Below, in pieces: positions 23,819-36,037 of a DNA stretch of 41,813 nucleotides (position 1 is the stretch's first letter; the number at the start of each line of letters is the position of its first letter). A program made the position numbers and the translations under genes. The notes beneath the pieces were generated by a model that ran no database searches, was not told the DNA's origin, and worked only from the letters and a program-made list of their open reading frames with translations. Source of the stretch: Flavobacteriales bacterium (GTDB taxonomy: Bacteria; Bacteroidota; Bacteroidia; Flavobacteriales_D; Parvicellaceae); assembly GCA_024635865.1 (NCBI GenBank), contig JAGXIB010000094.1, forward strand, positions 1 through 41,813. The letters are read 5' to 3'.

Positions 23819-24862
23819 ATGAAAAAACTAATTTATATTCCTTTAGCTTTAGGAATGTTAAGCTGTAATAACTCTGAAGAAAAAACAGAAGAAGTAAAAA
23901 AAGACTTTGTTACCATTTCAGGTAAGATTACGAACCTAAAAGAAGGAGATTTAGTTATTAATAGTTTTAACCCTATGTTTTCAAAATCAGTTACTGTAAA
24001 TGAAGATGGTAGCTTCCATGATACATTAAGAGTTCCTGACTCAAACTCAAGCTACATGTTCACTTATGGAGATGAATATGGAAATATATTTTTACAAAAT
24101 GGAGATGAAACTTCTTTCACTTTAGATACTGATGAATTTGATGAGTCATTAAAATTTGAAGGAACAAGTATAAAAGAGAATACTTATTTGGCTGAAAAGT
24201 CTGACTTTTTAGGCGAAATTGACTTTATGGCGTTGGTCTCTCCTGAAAATGAAAATTTTGAGAAAGAACTCCAAGTTCTAATTGAGAAAAAAGAAGCTTA
24301 TTTGAATGAAAATTCAAGCTTAAATCAAAAACTCATTGAGGAAGAAAAAAAGGGCATAGAAAACTTTAAAAAGGGAGCTATGGAATACCATAATCAAGCT
24401 GTAGAAAAAGCAAATACCTTAGCTACGTTAACAGGTAAGCCTTCTCCTAATTTTGAAAATTATAAAACTCCAGAAGACAAATTAGTTTCTTTAGACCAGT
24501 TTAAAGGCAAATATACTTATATCGATGTTTGGGCAACTTGGTGTGGCCCATGTAAGGCAGAAATTCCAGACATGATAAAGTTTAACAATACCGAAGATGC
24601 AAAGAAAATGAACTTTATAAGTCTTTCTGTAGATGAAGAAAAAGCAGTTGATGATTGGAAAAAAATGGTAGTCGAAAAAGAAATGACTTGGCATCAATTA
24701 AGAGCAGACTCTGCGTGGAAATCTAGCTTTATTGCAGATTATTCAATCAATAGTATTCCTCGGTTTATTTTATTAGATCCAAAAGGAAACATTGTTAATC
24801 CAGATGCTCCAAGACCTTCTTCTGAAGCATTTAAAACAATGATTAAAGAATTAAATTTATAA
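23819..24862 (+). CDS. TlpA-like thiol-disulfide lipoprotein (DUF4369 + thioredoxin)
   Basis: 347 residues. Lipoprotein signal peptide with C16 as the lipobox Cys (LGMLSCNN). The N-terminal beta domain (about 31-125) fits DUF4369 ('ISGKITNL...', 'VNEDGSFHDTL'). A helical linker (about 130-200) precedes a thioredoxin fold with WATWCGPCKAEIP (C242, C245) and the cis-Pro loop SIPRF. It should reduce or oxidise protein disulfides in the periplasm, anchored in a membrane. Its C-terminal half is strikingly similar to that of the permease fusion 2.6 kb downstream (IPRF...GNI.N...P.PSS..F in both), so they are paralogues. It has a candidate promoter and a strong terminator of its own. Confidence 0.93.
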   Translation: MKKLIYIPLALGMLSCNNSEEKTEEVKKDFVTISGKITNLKEGDLVINSFNPMFSKSVTVNEDGSFHDTLRVPDSNSSYMFTYGDEYGNIFLQNGDETSFTLDTDEFDESLKFEGTSIKENTYLAEKSDFLGEIDFMALVSPENENFEKELQVLIEKKEAYLNENSSLNQKLIEEEKKGIENFKKGAMEYHNQAVEKANTLATLTGKPSPNFENYKTPEDKLVSLDQFKGKYTYIDVWATWCGPCKAEIPDMIKFNNTEDAKKMNFISLSVDEEKAVDDWKKMVVEKEMTWHQLRADSAWKSSFIADYSINSIPRFILLDPKGNIVNPDAPRPSSEAFKTMIKELNL

Positions 24863-26637: not shown

Positions 26638-27555
26638 ATGACCAATATAATTGAAATTAAATCACTTTCTTTTTGCTACTCTAAACAAAATAAAATTCTA
26701 AACAATTTATCTTTAAGTGTCCCTGAGGGCTCTATCTATGGTTTTTTAGGCCAAAATGGAGCTGGTAAATCGACTACCATGAGTTTAATTTCAGGCTTAA
26801 TCCCTGAGCAATCTAATTCGATTAAGCTATTTAATAAGCCTATTCAAGATCAATTACCTCAAGCTTTTTCTAAAATAGGAACTCTTATAGAGTCTCCAGC
26901 ATTATACCTTCACCTAAGTGGATATGATAATTTAAAGTACATAGCAAAAATTAAAGGAATAAGCTTGGTTAAGGTAAATGAAGTTCTAGAGCTAATAGGC
27001 CTTAAAAACGAACAAAAAAAGGCCGCTAAAAACTATTCTCTTGGAATGAAACAACGCTTAGCAATAGGCATGGCTCTATTAGGAGACCCAAAACTACTAT
27101 TACTTGACGAACCTGTGAATGGATTAGATCCATCGGGGATTAAAGAAGTTAGGAACTTGCTTATAAAATTAAATCAAGAAAAAGGAATTACCATATTCAT
27201 TTCTAGCCATTTACTTTCTGAAATAGAAAAAATGTGTACTCACATTGGAATAATAAACAATGGAGAAGTTGTCTTTGAGGGCACAATGAAAGAATTATCT
27301 GAAAAATCTACAGTAAAAAATATTGAAGTCACATTAAATAATGCTCAACATTGGGCAGACGAGCTGAACAAAGATTCATTAATGAAAGTCTCTATTATTA
27401 ACGAAACAAAAATAATTATACAAATTGAAAGTTCAACTTCGGTTCCTGGTTTCATAAAAAAACTAGTCAATATGGGAATAGATATTGATCAATTTAAAGT
27501 GCTAGATGAACTTGAAGATATTTTTATGGAAATCACAGATTCTAAAGCAGAATAA
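26638..27555 (+). CDS. ABC transporter ATP-binding protein (BcrA/NatA-like)
   Basis: 305 residues. Walker A GQNGAGKST (about residues 37-45), Q-loop region IESPALYLHLSG, signature YSLGMKQRLAIG, Walker B LLLLDEP followed by NGLDPSG, and the H-loop ISSHLLSE. The form 'SLGMKQRLGIA' with the C-terminal extension (about 220-305) is typical of drug, lantibiotic or sodium export ATPases that pair with ABC-2 permeases. The partner permease follows directly: its preferred ATG is 4 bases after this stop. Cargo cannot be read from the sequence. Confidence 0.94.
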   Translation: MTNIIEIKSLSFCYSKQNKILNNLSLSVPEGSIYGFLGQNGAGKSTTMSLISGLIPEQSNSIKLFNKPIQDQLPQAFSKIGTLIESPALYLHLSGYDNLKYIAKIKGISLVKVNEVLELIGLKNEQKKAAKNYSLGMKQRLAIGMALLGDPKLLLLDEPVNGLDPSGIKEVRNLLIKLNQEKGITIFISSHLLSEIEKMCTHIGIINNGEVVFEGTMKELSEKSTVKNIEVTLNNAQHWADELNKDSLMKVSIINETKIIIQIESSTSVPGFIKKLVNMGIDIDQFKVLDELEDIFMEITDSKAE

Positions 27556-27559
27556 AAAT

Positions 27560-29785
27560 ATGAAAAATAAACAATCAAATTTTATTACGGTATTTAATGC
27601 AGAGCTTCTAAAAAAGAAAAAGAAAGGAATTTTCTGGACAAGTCTAATTATAGGTTTAGTATTTCCACTAATCGCATTCCTTAACTCTTTTTCGAAAGGG
27701 TTTACGGATCATATTCCACAACTCCCGTACAATTTCTTTACTTGGTTTTTTAGTCATAGCATAATGGGGTATGCCGGCTTTTTCTTTCCTCTATTAATCA
27801 TAATTTCAGCAAGCAGAATTACACAATTAGATCATAAAAATGGAGGGTGGAAACTTATGGAAACAAGCCCTTTGAGTAGAAGTTCTATTTTCTTTGGAAA
27901 ATTTGCTTTATTACTTACATCAAACCTAATTTCAATTGTCTCATTTATTGTTTTTGGAGCTTTGTTTAGCTTTGTCTTAATATCCAAAGGAGGTATTCCA
28001 GAAGAAGCTGCGACTTCGTTTCCGCTACTTTTTACAGCTCGACTAATCTTTCGTCTATTTATAAGCTCTCTTTTAATCTCTGCCATCCAATATGCCTTAT
28101 CTGTTCTTTTCAAAGGAATGATATGGCCTTTAATTATAGGTTTTGCTGGACTAGTATTTTCACTGTTTTCTAGGGCAATTTTCTTGAAAAACATAAGCTG
28201 GAACCCGTTTCAAATCCTAACAAATGTAGGAACAAGTACCTCAAGAAATGAAGTGGTAGATTTTTTAGTTTATACAGACTTAATTAGTCTATTTCTCTCT
28301 ATTCCTATACTTTATATCTCCTTCGAATGGTATAAGTTCAGAACAATTAAAGTAGCATTCACAAGCACAACTTTAAAAATGGTAAAACTGTTAATCATTG
28401 TTTGTCTATCTGGTTTAGGTTTAGGTTATTTACTTACCCCAAATCAATCAAAAACTTATGAAAAAACTATTTTAGCAGGGGAAATAGAGAGCGACACCCC
28501 TATAGAGTTTGTGTATTTAATTGATAATGTACTTGGGGATACAATTGTTAAAGCTCCAATAAAAAACAATGACTTTTACACTGAAATTAAAACCCCGTTG
28601 GTTCTTGATTATTACTCATTGGCTATAGACAATAAGCTTGAGGAACCTATTTTCATAGGAGAAAAAGACAGCTTATATATTGAGGCTCGCCTATATAATC
28701 AAGAAAGTAAGATAAAAGTAAAAGGTACTCGTTTAGCAGAAAATCAGATCATCATAAAATCTAAAAATCAGAAAAGTATCATAGAGTATTACTTAAACGA
28801 AGGTGAAAATCTTGACAATGAAGTTTTTTTCACAACTTCTCTTATAGAAGAGTGGGAAAGGAGAAAAATTCAACAATCTAATTACAGAACTGTAGACAAC
28901 TTTATTCCTAAAAACGATTTTAAGAATCGAAATGAAAAATTATTAGCAATTAAATATTTAAACTATTGGAATGATTTCAAGAATAAAAGGAAAGCATTAT
29001 TTCCTGATAAAGAAACCATAGAAACAGACCAAATAACAGCTTTAAAAAACCTTATTACTATAAACGATGAAACACTATTGAGCAACCCAGCATACATAAG
29101 GCACCTAAATAAAGAAGTCTCCTCTAAAATAACAGACAACTTAGAACCAAATATTAAAGTATTAGAGGCTTATAAAACAATAGACAAAGGCTCCTTCAGA
29201 GATAAAGTTAATTATCTTCAAATAATAAAAAGTTTACAAGAGGCTTCTGATGATACCGAAAGAACATTTATACTTGAAAAATACTTACCTGAAATAGAAA
29301 ATGAGAATTATAAAGCTAAAATTTTAGCTTCAAACAAAGATATTGAGCGATTAAGTAGAGGAAATAAAGCACCTGATTTTTACGCTTACAACACAAAGAA
29401 TGAAAAGATAAACTTAAATAGTTTTAAAGGTAAGTTTGTTTTAATTGATGTTTGGGCTAGCTGGTGCGGACCTTGCAAAAGAGAGACTCCCTTTTTCGAA
29501 AAGTACGCTATTAAATATCAAGACCAAAACATTAGTTTTATCTCTTTGAACGTTGATAAAGAAGAAATAAAATGGAGATCCATGATTCAAAATAAAAAGA
29601 GTGAAAGTATACAGTTAAGAGTAAAGGAAATAGATCAATTTGCTAGTCAATATTCTATCAAAACTATTCCAAGGTTTATTTTTATAGATACATTAGGAAA
29701 TATAATAAACAAAGAAATGCCTCTTCCTTCTTCAAGCTCTTTCGAAATTCTTTTGAAAAATGAAATAAAAGAAATTAAAATCTAA
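27560..29785 (+). CDS. ABC-2 permease fused to a periplasmic DUF4369-thioredoxin (TlpA-like) module
   Basis: 741 residues from the ATG at 27560; an upstream start at 27506 would overlap the ATPase gene. Residues 1-270 are a six-helix ABC-2 permease (helices near 24-44, 68-86, 107-133, 152-172, 180-198, 233-252) with ITQLDHKNGGWKLMETSPLSR as the coupling loop. Residues 274-292 (MVKLLIIVCLSGLGLGYLL) look like a former signal peptide, acting as a seventh helix that would put the C-terminus in the periplasm. Next come a DUF4369-like domain (about 300-400), a helical linker, and a thioredoxin domain with WASWCGPCKRETP (C636, C639) and the cis-Pro segment TIPRF. The C-terminal half is paralogous to the TlpA-like gene at 23819. 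ABC permeases rarely carry such a module. Confidence 0.92.
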   Translation: MKNKQSNFITVFNAELLKKKKKGIFWTSLIIGLVFPLIAFLNSFSKGFTDHIPQLPYNFFTWFFSHSIMGYAGFFFPLLIIISASRITQLDHKNGGWKLMETSPLSRSSIFFGKFALLLTSNLISIVSFIVFGALFSFVLISKGGIPEEAATSFPLLFTARLIFRLFISSLLISAIQYALSVLFKGMIWPLIIGFAGLVFSLFSRAIFLKNISWNPFQILTNVGTSTSRNEVVDFLVYTDLISLFLSIPILYISFEWYKFRTIKVAFTSTTLKMVKLLIIVCLSGLGLGYLLTPNQSKTYEKTILAGEIESDTPIEFVYLIDNVLGDTIVKAPIKNNDFYTEIKTPLVLDYYSLAIDNKLEEPIFIGEKDSLYIEARLYNQESKIKVKGTRLAENQIIIKSKNQKSIIEYYLNEGENLDNEVFFTTSLIEEWERRKIQQSNYRTVDNFIPKNDFKNRNEKLLAIKYLNYWNDFKNKRKALFPDKETIETDQITALKNLITINDETLLSNPAYIRHLNKEVSSKITDNLEPNIKVLEAYKTIDKGSFRDKVNYLQIIKSLQEASDDTERTFILEKYLPEIENENYKAKILASNKDIERLSRGNKAPDFYAYNTKNEKINLNSFKGKFVLIDVWASWCGPCKRETPFFEKYAIKYQDQNISFISLNVDKEEIKWRSMIQNKKSESIQLRVKEIDQFASQYSIKTIPRFIFIDTLGNIINKEMPLPSSSSFEILLKNEIKEIKI

Positions 29786-31109: not shown

Positions 31110-31141
31110 GTAAAACGTTTTCTAAAAACAAAATGCACAAA

Positions 31142-33493
31142 ATGAAATACCTAATATCCATCATACTCTCAATTACTCTAGCTGGAGCAGTGTCTTCTCA
31201 GAGCGTATATCATAAAGCAAAAGTCTATTATAGCTCTGCAAAAGATTTAATCTTATTAGCAAATCAGGGAGTTAGTATAGACCATGGTATGCAAAAGAAA
31301 GGTGTTTTTATAGAGTCAGATTTTTCTCAAAATGAGCTAAATATTGTAAAAGCCTTGGGGTTGGATTATAAAATAACCATTCCTAATGTTTCAGAATATT
31401 ACCAGAATCAAAACAATGTAAAAAGTCAGAATAAAAATGCAAGTTGCAATAGTCAGTTTAATTACGCAGTACCTACCAATTATAATAATGGTTCTATGGG
31501 TGGTTTTTTAACTTATAGCGAAATGTTGCAAGAGTTAGACGACATGGCTAACCTTTATCCTAATTTAATCTCTGTGAAACAAAGTATTTCTAGTTTTTCT
31601 ACAGTTGAAGGAAGGCCTGTTTACTGGGTTAAAATATCCGATAACCCAAATACTAATGAAACCGAACCAGAAATGCTTTACACAGCTATACACCATGCAA
31701 GAGAGCCTGGTTCTTTACAGCAAACTATTTTTTACATGTGGTATTTGTTAGAAAACTATGGTTCAAATGAAGAAGTTAAAGCCATTATAAACAATACTGA
31801 ACTTTACTTTGTGCCTTGTATTAACCCCGATGGATATATTTACAATGAGACAACAAACCGAAATGGAGGCGGTTTATGGCGTAAAAACAGAAGAGATAAC
31901 TTAGACGGCGAATTTGGTGTAGACTTAAATAGAAATTATAATTATCAATGGGGAGGAGCCGGAACAAGTCCGAATACTAATAGTGACATTTACAGAGGTC
32001 CAACTGCTTTCTCTGAAGTTGAAACACAAGCAATAAAATGGTTTTGCGAACAGCATGATTTTAAAATTGCATTAAACAGTCACAGTTACAGTAATTTATT
32101 ACTCTACCCCTTTGGATATGCTACAGGTCAAATTTCAGCAGACGATGCTACTTTTAGTGCTATATCTAAAGTTATGGTTGAGCAAAATGGATACGTTAAT
32201 CAAATTTCTGCTGCTCTTTATGCTGCTGCAGGTGATTCTGATGATTGGATGTACGGAGAAACTAGCACTCACAATAAGATTTTAGCCATGACCCCCGAAG
32301 TTGGAAGTAGTTTTTGGCCTGCTCAAAATTCGATTGTTCCTTTGTGTAAGGAGATGGTCTATCATAATTTAATGGCGGCTAACTTCATTACTAATTATGC
32401 TAAAACAAAAGATAACTCCTCTTTCTCAGTAACTCAAACAGCTGGCTACTTTAACTATAAAACACAACGATTGGGACTAGATAACCCAGGAGACTTTACT
32501 GTTACAGTAGTTCCTATCTCTTCTAACATAATTGCTGTAGGAGGAACGAATACTCACAATGGAATGACTTTATTACAAACAGATTTAGACTCTATAGCTT
32601 ATACGCTTTCCCCTTCGATACAAGATGGAGACGAAATAAAGTATATTCTTGTCACAAACAATGGACTGTACGATTCTAAAGATACGGTTAGAAAGTTCTA
32701 TGGAGCGTTTCAACCTGCTTTAGCCGATAATGGAGATAATACCGCAAACTGGAGTACCAATGGAATGTGGGGAACTACTTCTCAATTCTCCTACTCTCCT
32801 TCTACCTCCATTACAGATTCTCCAAATGGGAATTATAGTAACCAGTCTAACACATCAATAGAACTGACCAATGAAACGTCTCTAAGCAATGCTATAGCTG
32901 CAAACGTTAGTTTTTATGCAAAGTGGAATGTAGAGGCTGGCTGGGATTATGTTCAGTTCGAAATTTCTACAAATGGAGGTTCAAATTGGATTCCTCAATG
33001 TGGAAAATTTACTGGAATAGGAAATAACAATCAAGCAGAAGGAGAGCCTTTATATGATGGGCTTCAAAATGCTTGGGTAAAAGAAGAGATCGATTTAAGT
33101 AACTACCTAGGACAAAACATTAAAGCTCGTTTTCAATTAGTTTCTGACCAAGGAGTAACAGAAGATGGCTTTTATTTTGATGATTTTAACATTAGTGTTA
33201 TATACGGAAGTAATGCAATAGAAGAGTTAAGTACTAGTCATTATCATGTAAGCCAAAACAGCCCTAACCCAAGTACTAGAAATACAGCTGTTTATTACCA
33301 AATAAATAACAATACCTCTAATCGTTTTGTATTGATTAACCAAGTAGGTAAAGTGATTAAAACAGAACAACTATTAGATAAAAAAGGTCAATTAAACATT
33401 AACACGAATGAGTTAGCCGCTGTGGTTTACTTCTATTATATTACCGATGGTAAAACCACTTCTGCAACTTATAAAATTCTAGTCGTTGAGTAA
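31142..33493 (+). CDS. M14 zinc carboxypeptidase with T9SS sorting domain
   Basis: 783 residues from the ATG at 31142, chosen because MKYLISIILSITLAG starts the signal peptide; an ATG three codons upstream is the alternative. After a propeptide-like region (about 20-110), the catalytic domain shows the zinc motif AIHHAREPGS (His and Glu of HxxE), NPDGY, GVDLNRNYNYQWGG (substrate Arg), NSHSYSNLLLYPFGY (third His ligand) and TPEVGSSFWP (catalytic Glu). A beta-sandwich follows (about 540-690, with FYFDDFNIS). The last ~75 residues (VSQNSPNPSTRNTAVYY... to ATYKILVVE) are a T9SS type A sorting domain. A secreted extracellular peptidase for protein degradation. Confidence 0.95.
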   Translation: MKYLISIILSITLAGAVSSQSVYHKAKVYYSSAKDLILLANQGVSIDHGMQKKGVFIESDFSQNELNIVKALGLDYKITIPNVSEYYQNQNNVKSQNKNASCNSQFNYAVPTNYNNGSMGGFLTYSEMLQELDDMANLYPNLISVKQSISSFSTVEGRPVYWVKISDNPNTNETEPEMLYTAIHHAREPGSLQQTIFYMWYLLENYGSNEEVKAIINNTELYFVPCINPDGYIYNETTNRNGGGLWRKNRRDNLDGEFGVDLNRNYNYQWGGAGTSPNTNSDIYRGPTAFSEVETQAIKWFCEQHDFKIALNSHSYSNLLLYPFGYATGQISADDATFSAISKVMVEQNGYVNQISAALYAAAGDSDDWMYGETSTHNKILAMTPEVGSSFWPAQNSIVPLCKEMVYHNLMAANFITNYAKTKDNSSFSVTQTAGYFNYKTQRLGLDNPGDFTVTVVPISSNIIAVGGTNTHNGMTLLQTDLDSIAYTLSPSIQDGDEIKYILVTNNGLYDSKDTVRKFYGAFQPALADNGDNTANWSTNGMWGTTSQFSYSPSTSITDSPNGNYSNQSNTSIELTNETSLSNAIAANVSFYAKWNVEAGWDYVQFEISTNGGSNWIPQCGKFTGIGNNNQAEGEPLYDGLQNAWVKEEIDLSNYLGQNIKARFQLVSDQGVTEDGFYFDDFNISVIYGSNAIEELSTSHYHVSQNSPNPSTRNTAVYYQINNNTSNRFVLINQVGKVIKTEQLLDKKGQLNINTNELAAVVYFYYITDGKTTSATYKILVVE

Positions 33494-33590: not shown

Positions 33591-35909
33591 CTAATTCACA
33601 AACAACAACTTGGTTGCTATTTTATCAGAACCATCTTCGGTAACTAAAAAAACATAGTAAACTCCAGTTGCCACTCGTTCTCCAGATAGCGTTTTACCAT
33701 CCCAAACTGCTTGCCCTCCCAAAGAGGTTGTAGAAGCAACGAGGTTTCCACTTGCATCTGTAATTTTCACATCTGCACTGTTCGTTAAACCTTTTATTGC
33801 AATTTTCCCCTGATACTCAGGTCTTACAGGATTTGGATAAGCATAAACTTCATTAAAGGTTGCATTAGGTTCTGTAGCTTCTCCCTTAAAGCCCATAATT
33901 CCTTTATCAGTTCCTACATATACTTCACCTGTTTTAGGGTTAATAGCTAGCGCATTTATAGTATTAGAAAAGATGGGGCTATTCTCTGTTGTAAAAGAGT
34001 TAATCATTTCGGTACCATCAGCAGAAATTAAAAATAACCCTCCACCTTCTGTTGCAAACCACTTTCTATTCGCTCCATCTACCACAATTTCATTAATGTC
34101 TTCTGAACCCAACAACACTTCTAGGATTCCGTCTTGTTCAATTAAAATTTCTTGAGCATAATAATTCCCTCCTTCAAAGATGTTTCGAGGATAATAAATA
34201 ACTACTGGGCCATTTTCTGTCCCTAACCATATTGCTCCATTTTTATCTTCAACAATGGTATTTGTTATATCCGAAGGCAAAGCTCCACTTCCTTCAACTG
34301 TAGTTAATGTCTTAAACTGATCGTCTGTTTCGTCTTCTGGAGTTTTATTAAAATCATAAACCATTACTCCTCCTCCTTTTGCTCCCATCCAGAGATAACC
34401 GTTTGTCTTGTCTATATACAACTCTGTTACTATTCCTCCTTTCATTTCTGCACTACAGACAAAAGATTTCCATGTTCCGTCTATAGTATAAAGAGATAAG
34501 GGCTCATTTACAAACGCATTAGCCACCCAAAAATTTCCATCTTCGTCGAATGCAGAACCAGAAGCACATGTTTTTGTTAAATCTGTTAACCTTCTTTGTA
34601 ATGAAGAATTATACCAGGTATGTCTGGTCACATATTTTCCGTCTTTAATTTCTACAACTCCTCCCTTGAATGAACTAGCCATTATATGTGTTTCATCTAA
34701 TGGGTCTATAGCTATGTGAACAAAGTCAAAAATAGAGTCTACTTCAGAAAGCTCCACATTTGTTAACCCATTATACATTTCCCAGTCCTCAGAATTATAA
34801 TGATAAATTCCGTTCATATTAAATGTACTATTCCAAGCTGACCCTTCCGTTCTTCCCGAAGAAACCCAGAGGTCATTATTATTGGTTGCTAAATGAAAAA
34901 CATCATTAGAAAATGGACCTTGTAATAAGTAACTCTCAAAATTAAAATTATTAATGACCTTCACCATTCCATTATCTTTATCTGCAACCCAATAAGCTCC
35001 ATCATTCCAAATACATGAGTTAGGATTAACAAAACTTGTTTCCGCATAAGTATATAACAGTTCTACCTGTTGTAAGTTTTCATCTAGCTCTAAAACCCCT
35101 CTTTGGGTTGAGAGTAAGAGGTTATTGTCTTTAGGTTGAATGTCGAAGTAATCATTGTTTGAAAGGCTTGAAACTTTTCCAAAAACTCCATTTTCTAATT
35201 GGTAAAGGGTATCCGTTAAAAAGCCTGTATATTTTGCATTTAATAATAACCGACCACCAAAAGATGTAATAAAACTATAAGAAAGAGGAGCAATGTTATT
35301 TTCTATAGACCAATTAGTTGGATCTGATAAAAAAACTGACGAAAGTCCTGCTTTATATACTCCAGCATCTGTCGCTGCATAAATAGTATCTGTATTAATC
35401 GTTATATCATTGATCTTAACTTGTGAACCTCCAACTCCAATAATGTAAGTATCCTTAACTTCTTCTTTTTCAATATCAATAACAACAATTCCAAATCCAC
35501 AGGCCAAATAAGTTAAGTTCCCTGAAGAATAAACATTATAAACCCTCTTATCTCCTATAATATTACTAGAAACAATTCCCGACAAATTAATAATTTCTCC
35601 GTTTTTTATTAAATCGATATTTCCAGATTCGTATCCAACAACTATTGCTTTTTCTTGTTCATTTACTCCCATAATACTAATTGAAAAATCAGAAAGGGAG
35701 TTAATTTCAGTTAATCGTTCTATGCTATTATCATCTTCGTCTAAATAATACAATGAGTAGGGAGTTGCAGCATAGTACTTATTATCTAAGTGTACAATAT
35801 TAAGCACATTACGATAGGGTAAATACTCTTTCCAAGACCCCAACTCAAACCCTTGAGCTTGAGTCAAGAAACTTATAAATAAAATAACAATAATTAGAAT
35901 TGTTTTCAT
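33591..35909 (-). CDS. porZ: PorZ-like T9SS protein (two-component-regulator-type beta-propellers)
   Basis: 772 residues from the ATG at 35909, chosen for its signal peptide (MKTILIIVILFISFLTQAQ); the frame is open 24 codons further up, without a signal there. The mature start, FELGSWKEYLPYRNVLNIVHLDNKYYAATPYSLYYLDEDD, is the characteristic opening of PorZ, the T9SS component linked to anionic-LPS attachment of cargo in Porphyromonas. Two seven-bladed propellers are implied by repeated short motifs (AIWLGTENGPVVIY, RKWFATEGGGLFLIS, EVYVGTDKGIMGF). The C-terminal ~85 residues (VYAYPNPVRPEYQGKIAIKGL... VYYVFLV) are a T9SS C-terminal-domain-like fold. Symbol by similarity only; other propeller proteins share the blades. 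Confidence 0.8.
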   Translation of the reverse strand: MKTILIIVILFISFLTQAQGFELGSWKEYLPYRNVLNIVHLDNKYYAATPYSLYYLDEDDNSIERLTEINSLSDFSISIMGVNEQEKAIVVGYESGNIDLIKNGEIINLSGIVSSNIIGDKRVYNVYSSGNLTYLACGFGIVVIDIEKEEVKDTYIIGVGGSQVKINDITINTDTIYAATDAGVYKAGLSSVFLSDPTNWSIENNIAPLSYSFITSFGGRLLLNAKYTGFLTDTLYQLENGVFGKVSSLSNNDYFDIQPKDNNLLLSTQRGVLELDENLQQVELLYTYAETSFVNPNSCIWNDGAYWVADKDNGMVKVINNFNFESYLLQGPFSNDVFHLATNNNDLWVSSGRTEGSAWNSTFNMNGIYHYNSEDWEMYNGLTNVELSEVDSIFDFVHIAIDPLDETHIMASSFKGGVVEIKDGKYVTRHTWYNSSLQRRLTDLTKTCASGSAFDEDGNFWVANAFVNEPLSLYTIDGTWKSFVCSAEMKGGIVTELYIDKTNGYLWMGAKGGGVMVYDFNKTPEDETDDQFKTLTTVEGSGALPSDITNTIVEDKNGAIWLGTENGPVVIYYPRNIFEGGNYYAQEILIEQDGILEVLLGSEDINEIVVDGANRKWFATEGGGLFLISADGTEMINSFTTENSPIFSNTINALAINPKTGEVYVGTDKGIMGFKGEATEPNATFNEVYAYPNPVRPEYQGKIAIKGLTNSADVKITDASGNLVASTTSLGGQAVWDGKTLSGERVATGVYYVFLVTEDGSDKIATKLLFVN

Positions 35910-36037
35910 GCCGTAAAAATAGGAATACGTTTTATATCCCTTATAACTATTCTTAAGTATTTTTATTGTTTTACTCCCCATCTCTTGAAAAAAAACAATT
36001 GATTTTATATAAAAACAGATGAGCTTAGACTAAAAAA

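Follow-up and report, generated by a model that had tools for sequence, protein, structure and literature searches.

The locus and its reading frame

We have analyzed a window of 41,813 nucleotides (the whole stretch of DNA presented above) from a member of the Flavobacteriales. On its forward strand, an intact gene at 26638–27555 codes for an ABC ATPase of 305 aa, BcrA/LanF-like by its motifs, recognized by Pfam ABC_tran and with TIGR03740 as the nearest NCBIfam model. Four bases separate its end from a second forward ORF (27560–29785) that codes for 741 aa in an open frame, without internal stop, and joins an ABC-2 permease to a thioredoxin domain. The ORF check agreed with the original prediction in coordinates and frame, and the domain layout proposed there was confirmed and extended. 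An alternative ATG located 54 bases upstream (27506) is possible, but the homologues begin at the position that matches 27560. The copy of the fused gene found in a congener is 51% identical end to end and lies in the same gene neighborhood. Further downstream, the window codes for an M14 carboxypeptidase with a type IX sorting tail (31133–33493, forward strand) and a PorZ-like type IX secretion protein (33591–35981, reverse strand), both ordinary for the phylum.

Domain layout and predicted topology

The permease part comprises residues 1–262 (27560–28345), with six transmembrane helices, and was delimited by the Pfam family ABC2_membrane_4 (PF12730), AlphaFold and the invariant columns in 37 homologues. 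The match to PF12730 at residues 13–199 reached 59.9 bits against a cut-off of 27, placing the protein in this family, and 36 of the 37 relatives also match at E ≤ 0.01. Next comes a junction with a seventh membrane helix (28346–28459; helix at residues 271–292), basic on its cytoplasmic side, that is predicted to lead the chain into the periplasm. There follow a DUF4369-like beta domain (residues 301–390; 28460–28729), with eight strands in the model, and a helical segment (residues 391–597; 28730–29350), both delimited by profile comparison and AlphaFold. The chain ends in a thioredoxin domain of the TlpA/ResA type (residues 598–741; 29351–29782) with the active site WCGPC (635–639) and the cis-proline within IPRF (703–706). 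All these parts lie on the forward strand. The thioredoxin domain with WCGPC that had been read from the sequence was recovered by Pfam, with a Redoxin match at residues 601–719 (63.1 bits, cut-off 26.6) and AhpC-TSA also above its cut-off, as well as by the nearest structures.

The AlphaFold model built with the 37 homologues (mean pLDDT 87, pTM 0.76) contains the six helices, the helix 271–292, an eight-stranded domain (303–389), helices (392–597) and a thioredoxin fold (600–740), and its permease part retains an ordinary ABC-2 fold. Hydropathy averaged over the 37 homologues gave seven hydrophobic segments, the same helices as in the AlphaFold models. The distribution of positive charges predicts a cytoplasmic N-terminus and a periplasmic location for everything after helix 7. 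The argument that an odd number of helices would place the redox module in the periplasm is in line with both these charges and the modeled topology.

The DUF4369 assignment was upheld in part. Pfam gave no DUF4369 match in the window protein and four weak ones among the 37 relatives (best E 0.0016), but profile comparison by hhalign with stand-alone DUF4369-TlpA proteins backs it (probability 100, E 6.5e-40, 345 columns, many of which belong to the thioredoxin part). No Pfam or NCBIfam model spanning the whole fused chain was found. The proposal that helix 7 is a signal peptide starting at M274 had to be abandoned, and with it a hidden second gene start, because no more than 9 of the 37 relatives have a methionine within residues 263–282, and one of the 37 has a lipobox-like cysteine after the helix. 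Helix 7 therefore anchors the fused protein in the membrane and is not a concealed gene start.

Recurrence of the fusion

When 84,980 species genomes were scanned with a pattern derived from the fused proteins, which favors the fused clade, 36 named query-related loci were retrieved. All 36 are fused, with lengths of 720–766 aa except for one cut by the end of its contig. Together with the window and its congener there are 38 genomes with the fusion, among them species of Flavobacterium, Polaribacter, Lacinutrix, Chryseobacterium, Kaistella and other Bacteroidota, and culturable type strains such as Flavobacterium rivuli DSM 21788 and F. saliperosum. The 35 further complete copies aligned end to end at 25–42% identity. 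The third fused copy came from another family than that of the window, and three more were then found in a sample of Flavobacteriaceae. The expectation that a true system should recur across genera was borne out, and the fusion is a true, recurrent protein layout. An assembly artefact or recent accident at 28370–28385 can be dismissed as next to impossible, since although the assembly of the window genome is fragmented (232 contigs) the same fusion occurs in 38 independent genomes, type strains included, and its junction has no conserved internal start codon.

Relatives with two separate genes, which would have pointed to an artefact, were looked for, and no unfused member was found inside the fused clade in the scan of 84,980 genomes, with a pattern biased toward fused forms. 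Wider profile searches over samples of the order, class and phylum retrieved, outside the fused clade, only unfused permeases of ~250 aa. Neither was a split version found, as no TlpA-like gene lay within 1.5 kb of the unfused ABC-2 permeases, with the exception of an unrelated protein with WCSYC near one of them (L084). The fused protein was present in 2 of 399 genomes of the order sample (both of the window's genus), 1 of 395 of the class (the window's own), 2 of 395 of the phylum and 4 of 299 Flavobacteriaceae. This patchy and rare distribution, about 1% of the sampled relatives, would suit an accessory function. A phage or plasmid origin was rejected, as phages and viral contigs gave no match and plasmids none of full length. 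A role in anti-phage defence was also discarded, since the PADLOC matches of the ATPase were generic and the fused protein had none.

Conservation and history

Over the 37 homologues, invariant or nearly invariant positions were found along the whole chain: E15, K18, P36, DHKxxGW (91–97), K114, G194, P216 and Y258 in the permease, G307, F339, Y352, D370, N447 and Y512 in the middle part, and W635, C636, P638, C639 and P704 in the thioredoxin domain. Between close pairs, dN/dS values, which are simple Nei-Gojobori counts and rough for small segments, were mostly 0.05–0.16 for the permease part, the helical segment and the thioredoxin domain. They reached about 0.25 in the beta domain and were 0.18–0.45 in the looser junction, which is short and of conserved length among relatives. 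These substitution patterns indicate that every part of the fused protein is under purifying selection.

When 37 fused permeases were placed in one tree with 55 unfused ones, a single branch separated the two sets (SH-aLRT 96), and the thioredoxin domains of the fused proteins were likewise separated from 35 TlpA domains (SH-aLRT 91); both trees are read as unrooted. As each tree sets the fused forms apart, the pattern is consistent with a single fusion event. The family tree hints at horizontal transfer, and with weak topology tests (AU p 0.044 and 0.151) the gene may possibly have moved between lineages.

The ATPase partner and the gene neighborhood

The original prediction had paired the fused gene with its ATPase neighbor, and this gene is indeed conserved, immediately preceding the fused one in all 38 loci and either overlapping it or lying no more than about 65 bases away. 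The window ATPase has Walker A (GQNGAGKS), signature (YSLGMKQR), Walker B (LLLLDEP) and H-loop (SSH) motifs, and the Q-loop is replaced by an acidic E-loop (IGTLIESP), whose glutamate aligns with the Q-loop glutamine of ABCA1. An acidic E-loop in place of this glutamine is a hallmark of LanF proteins. The motifs are kept across the 38 ATPases, with E at the Q-loop position, or D in Weeksellaceae, where it was read out. The BcrA-type pairing holds insofar as the lantibiotic-protection ATPases (TIGR03740) are the closest named family and the E-loop is acidic, but curated family cut-offs were not reached: the ATPase scored 232.9 bits with TIGR03740 (cut-off 309.75) and 177.2 of 402.6 with the GldA model TIGR03522, and the permease 29.5 of 117.2 with the MutG permease model TIGR03733.

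Nothing but the ATPase is universally linked to the fused gene, and the remaining neighbors vary among lineages. LytTR response regulators immediately precede the pair in Polaribacter, in Leadbetterella and, together with a histidine kinase, in Lacinutrix, as expected for an inducible export or resistance system, and a LuxR-type regulator is found downstream in some Flavobacterium. No bacteriocin or lanthipeptide genes were noticed near the pair in the lineages examined. Self-immunity to a lanthipeptide was considered, and is unlikely in six carrier genomes because the lanthipeptide cyclase LanC was not found in them. In Flavicella sediminum (L120:2282-4855) a secreted protein of 858 aa with a thioredoxin-like WCAPC domain is encoded directly upstream of the ATPase.

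The thioredoxin module and its probable electron supply

The thioredoxin fold, WCxxC and cis-proline place this domain among TlpA/ResA-like proteins. Its nearest solved structures are 2lja and 4k9z/4ka0 of Bacteroides vulgatus, and an earlier model likewise matched TlpA-like domains of Bacteroides best (4ka0, TM-score 0.91 normalized by target). The score with the ResA model PRK03147 was below the cut-off (79 of 170 bits), and we classify the domain, by sequence, as a member of the ResA superfamily and not as ResA itself. The CxxC is present in 36 of the 37 complete fused copies and the cis-proline in all 37. The single copy without CxxC belongs to a Leadbetterella MAG (L130:5968-8127), a distant member that reads WSKGADGS at this place and has kept the fusion, from which it follows that the redox module can persist without redox chemistry. 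A DsbD-type protein is encoded in all six carrier genomes tested.

The window also contains, 1.8 kb upstream, a stand-alone TlpA-like protein with DUF4369, WCGPC and a lipoprotein-like N-terminus (23819–24862, forward strand), which has a conserved counterpart in the congener (55% identity). Its product is the nearest thioredoxin paralogue in the window genome (43%). As a recent source of the fused domain it was rejected, since the fused thioredoxins make up one group, separate from it and from the other TlpA domains (SH-aLRT 91).

Possible function

In known systems of this type, BcrA has 280–320 aa and BcrB, the one permease subunit, about 200–250 aa (PMC4239024), while LanFEG and Cpr transporters expel lantibiotics from the membrane and resistance operons are under two-component control (PMC5786555). 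Like BcrAB and LanFEG (CprABC), the pair described here consists of an ATPase gene (about 300 aa, acidic E-loop) and a gene with a six-helix ABC-2 permease part of about 260 aa, and like BcrAB it has one permease only (PMC4239024). Unlike them, the permease continues into a seventh helix and a redox module of about 450 aa that is predicted to be periplasmic, the family cut-offs are not reached, there is no bacteriocin context, and the host belongs to the Bacteroidota. The module in turn resembles TlpA, ResA, CcmG and the DUF4369-TlpA lipoproteins of Bacteroidota in its thioredoxin fold, WCxxC and cis-proline, and the latter also in the DUF4369-like and helical N-terminal parts. Where TlpA-type proteins have a signal peptide or lipid as their anchor, it has a transporter permease, and in the thioredoxin tree it stands on a branch apart. 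No description of an ABC-2 permease joined to a thioredoxin was found in the open-access literature searched, and the layout is apparently, and provisionally, new, a variant on a known transporter type.

The anatomy of the pair agrees with that of an inducible system for export or expulsion that has a periplasmic reductase built in, and we tentatively favor a BcrAB/LanFEG-like two-gene exporter whose permease carries a DsbD-fed disulfide reductase acting on the expelled substrate. The ATPase would drive a homodimer of the fused permease, each chain holding a periplasmic reductase of the TlpA/ResA type on its seventh helix. Electrons would most likely pass from cytoplasmic thioredoxin to DsbD and then to the thioredoxin module, and the reductase would act on the substrate during its expulsion from, or passage through, the inner membrane. 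For example, a disulfide-bearing peptide or a small toxic molecule might be reduced, or an exported thiol compound kept reduced. We infer the dimer, the direction of transport, the substrate and the coupling of transport to redox chemistry. A disulfide- or thioether-containing peptide as substrate and a sensing role, both raised in the original prediction, are conjectural. The exporter reading is weakened by the lantibiotic-family cut-offs that ATPase and permease fail to reach, by the missing bacteriocin context and by the loss of CxxC in L130. That ATP hydrolysis is directly coupled to disulfide reduction, the permease handing its substrate to the reductase on the same chain or mechanically gating it, seems to us unlikely; if true, it would be a transport-redox machine of a kind not known to have been described. 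The layout suggests that ATP-driven transport and redox chemistry cooperate at the cell envelope. Toxic-peptide exporters and envelope disulfide reductases are studied as separate systems, and a conserved single chain with both offers a direct handle, as substrate and redox partner should meet there. The fused protein also defines a family lacking a whole-length model and present in culturable type strains.

The fusion could instead serve only as a tether, with an exporter and an envelope reductase, both of an ordinary kind, sharing one anchor and answering the same stress by acting on different molecules. In related Bacteroidota, permeases of this sort and TlpA proteins each have a gene of their own, and L130 has kept the fusion after losing its CxxC. 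However, the halves were never found split in the 38 genomes, from several families, and the ATPase gene always adjoins them, which leaves this explanation somewhat unlikely. We consider rather unlikely a maturation machine, comparable to NosDFY or Ccm, in which the ABC part would export or work on a cofactor or metal and the thioredoxin keep acceptor cysteines reduced. TlpA, ResA and CcmG do this in cytochrome c and CuA assembly, the Ccm pathway pairs ABC transport with a membrane-bound thioredoxin, the domain is of the ResA/TlpA kind, and NosF is among the solved relatives of the ATPase (144.6 bits). Yet genes for the assembly of cytochromes, copper sites or heme are not a recurrent feature beside the pair in the lineages examined, and its patchy presence is unlike that of a core maturation step.

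Less probable still would be an ATP-driven redox or mechanical device, in which hydrolysis moves no substrate but causes a conformational change in the periplasmic module that switches or powers the reductase. The single chain and the short junction of conserved length would suit it, and ABC-2 and similar ABC systems that pass force to periplasmic domains are known (NosDFY, MacB, FtsEX), but the sequence carries no sign of such coupling and the permease fold is an ordinary one. As in NosDFY and GldA/GldFG, the ABC-2 machinery here would act with a periplasmic domain, and GldG-like proteins, too, are fusions with an ABC-2 permease; in contrast to both systems, the periplasmic domain is an unrelated one and the ATPase falls far under the GldA cut-off. 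Another Bacteroidota locus (L096:4547-6937) codes for an ABC-2 permease of 796 aa with a periplasmic domain that resembles, as assigned by eye, a fusion of the GldF-GldG type.
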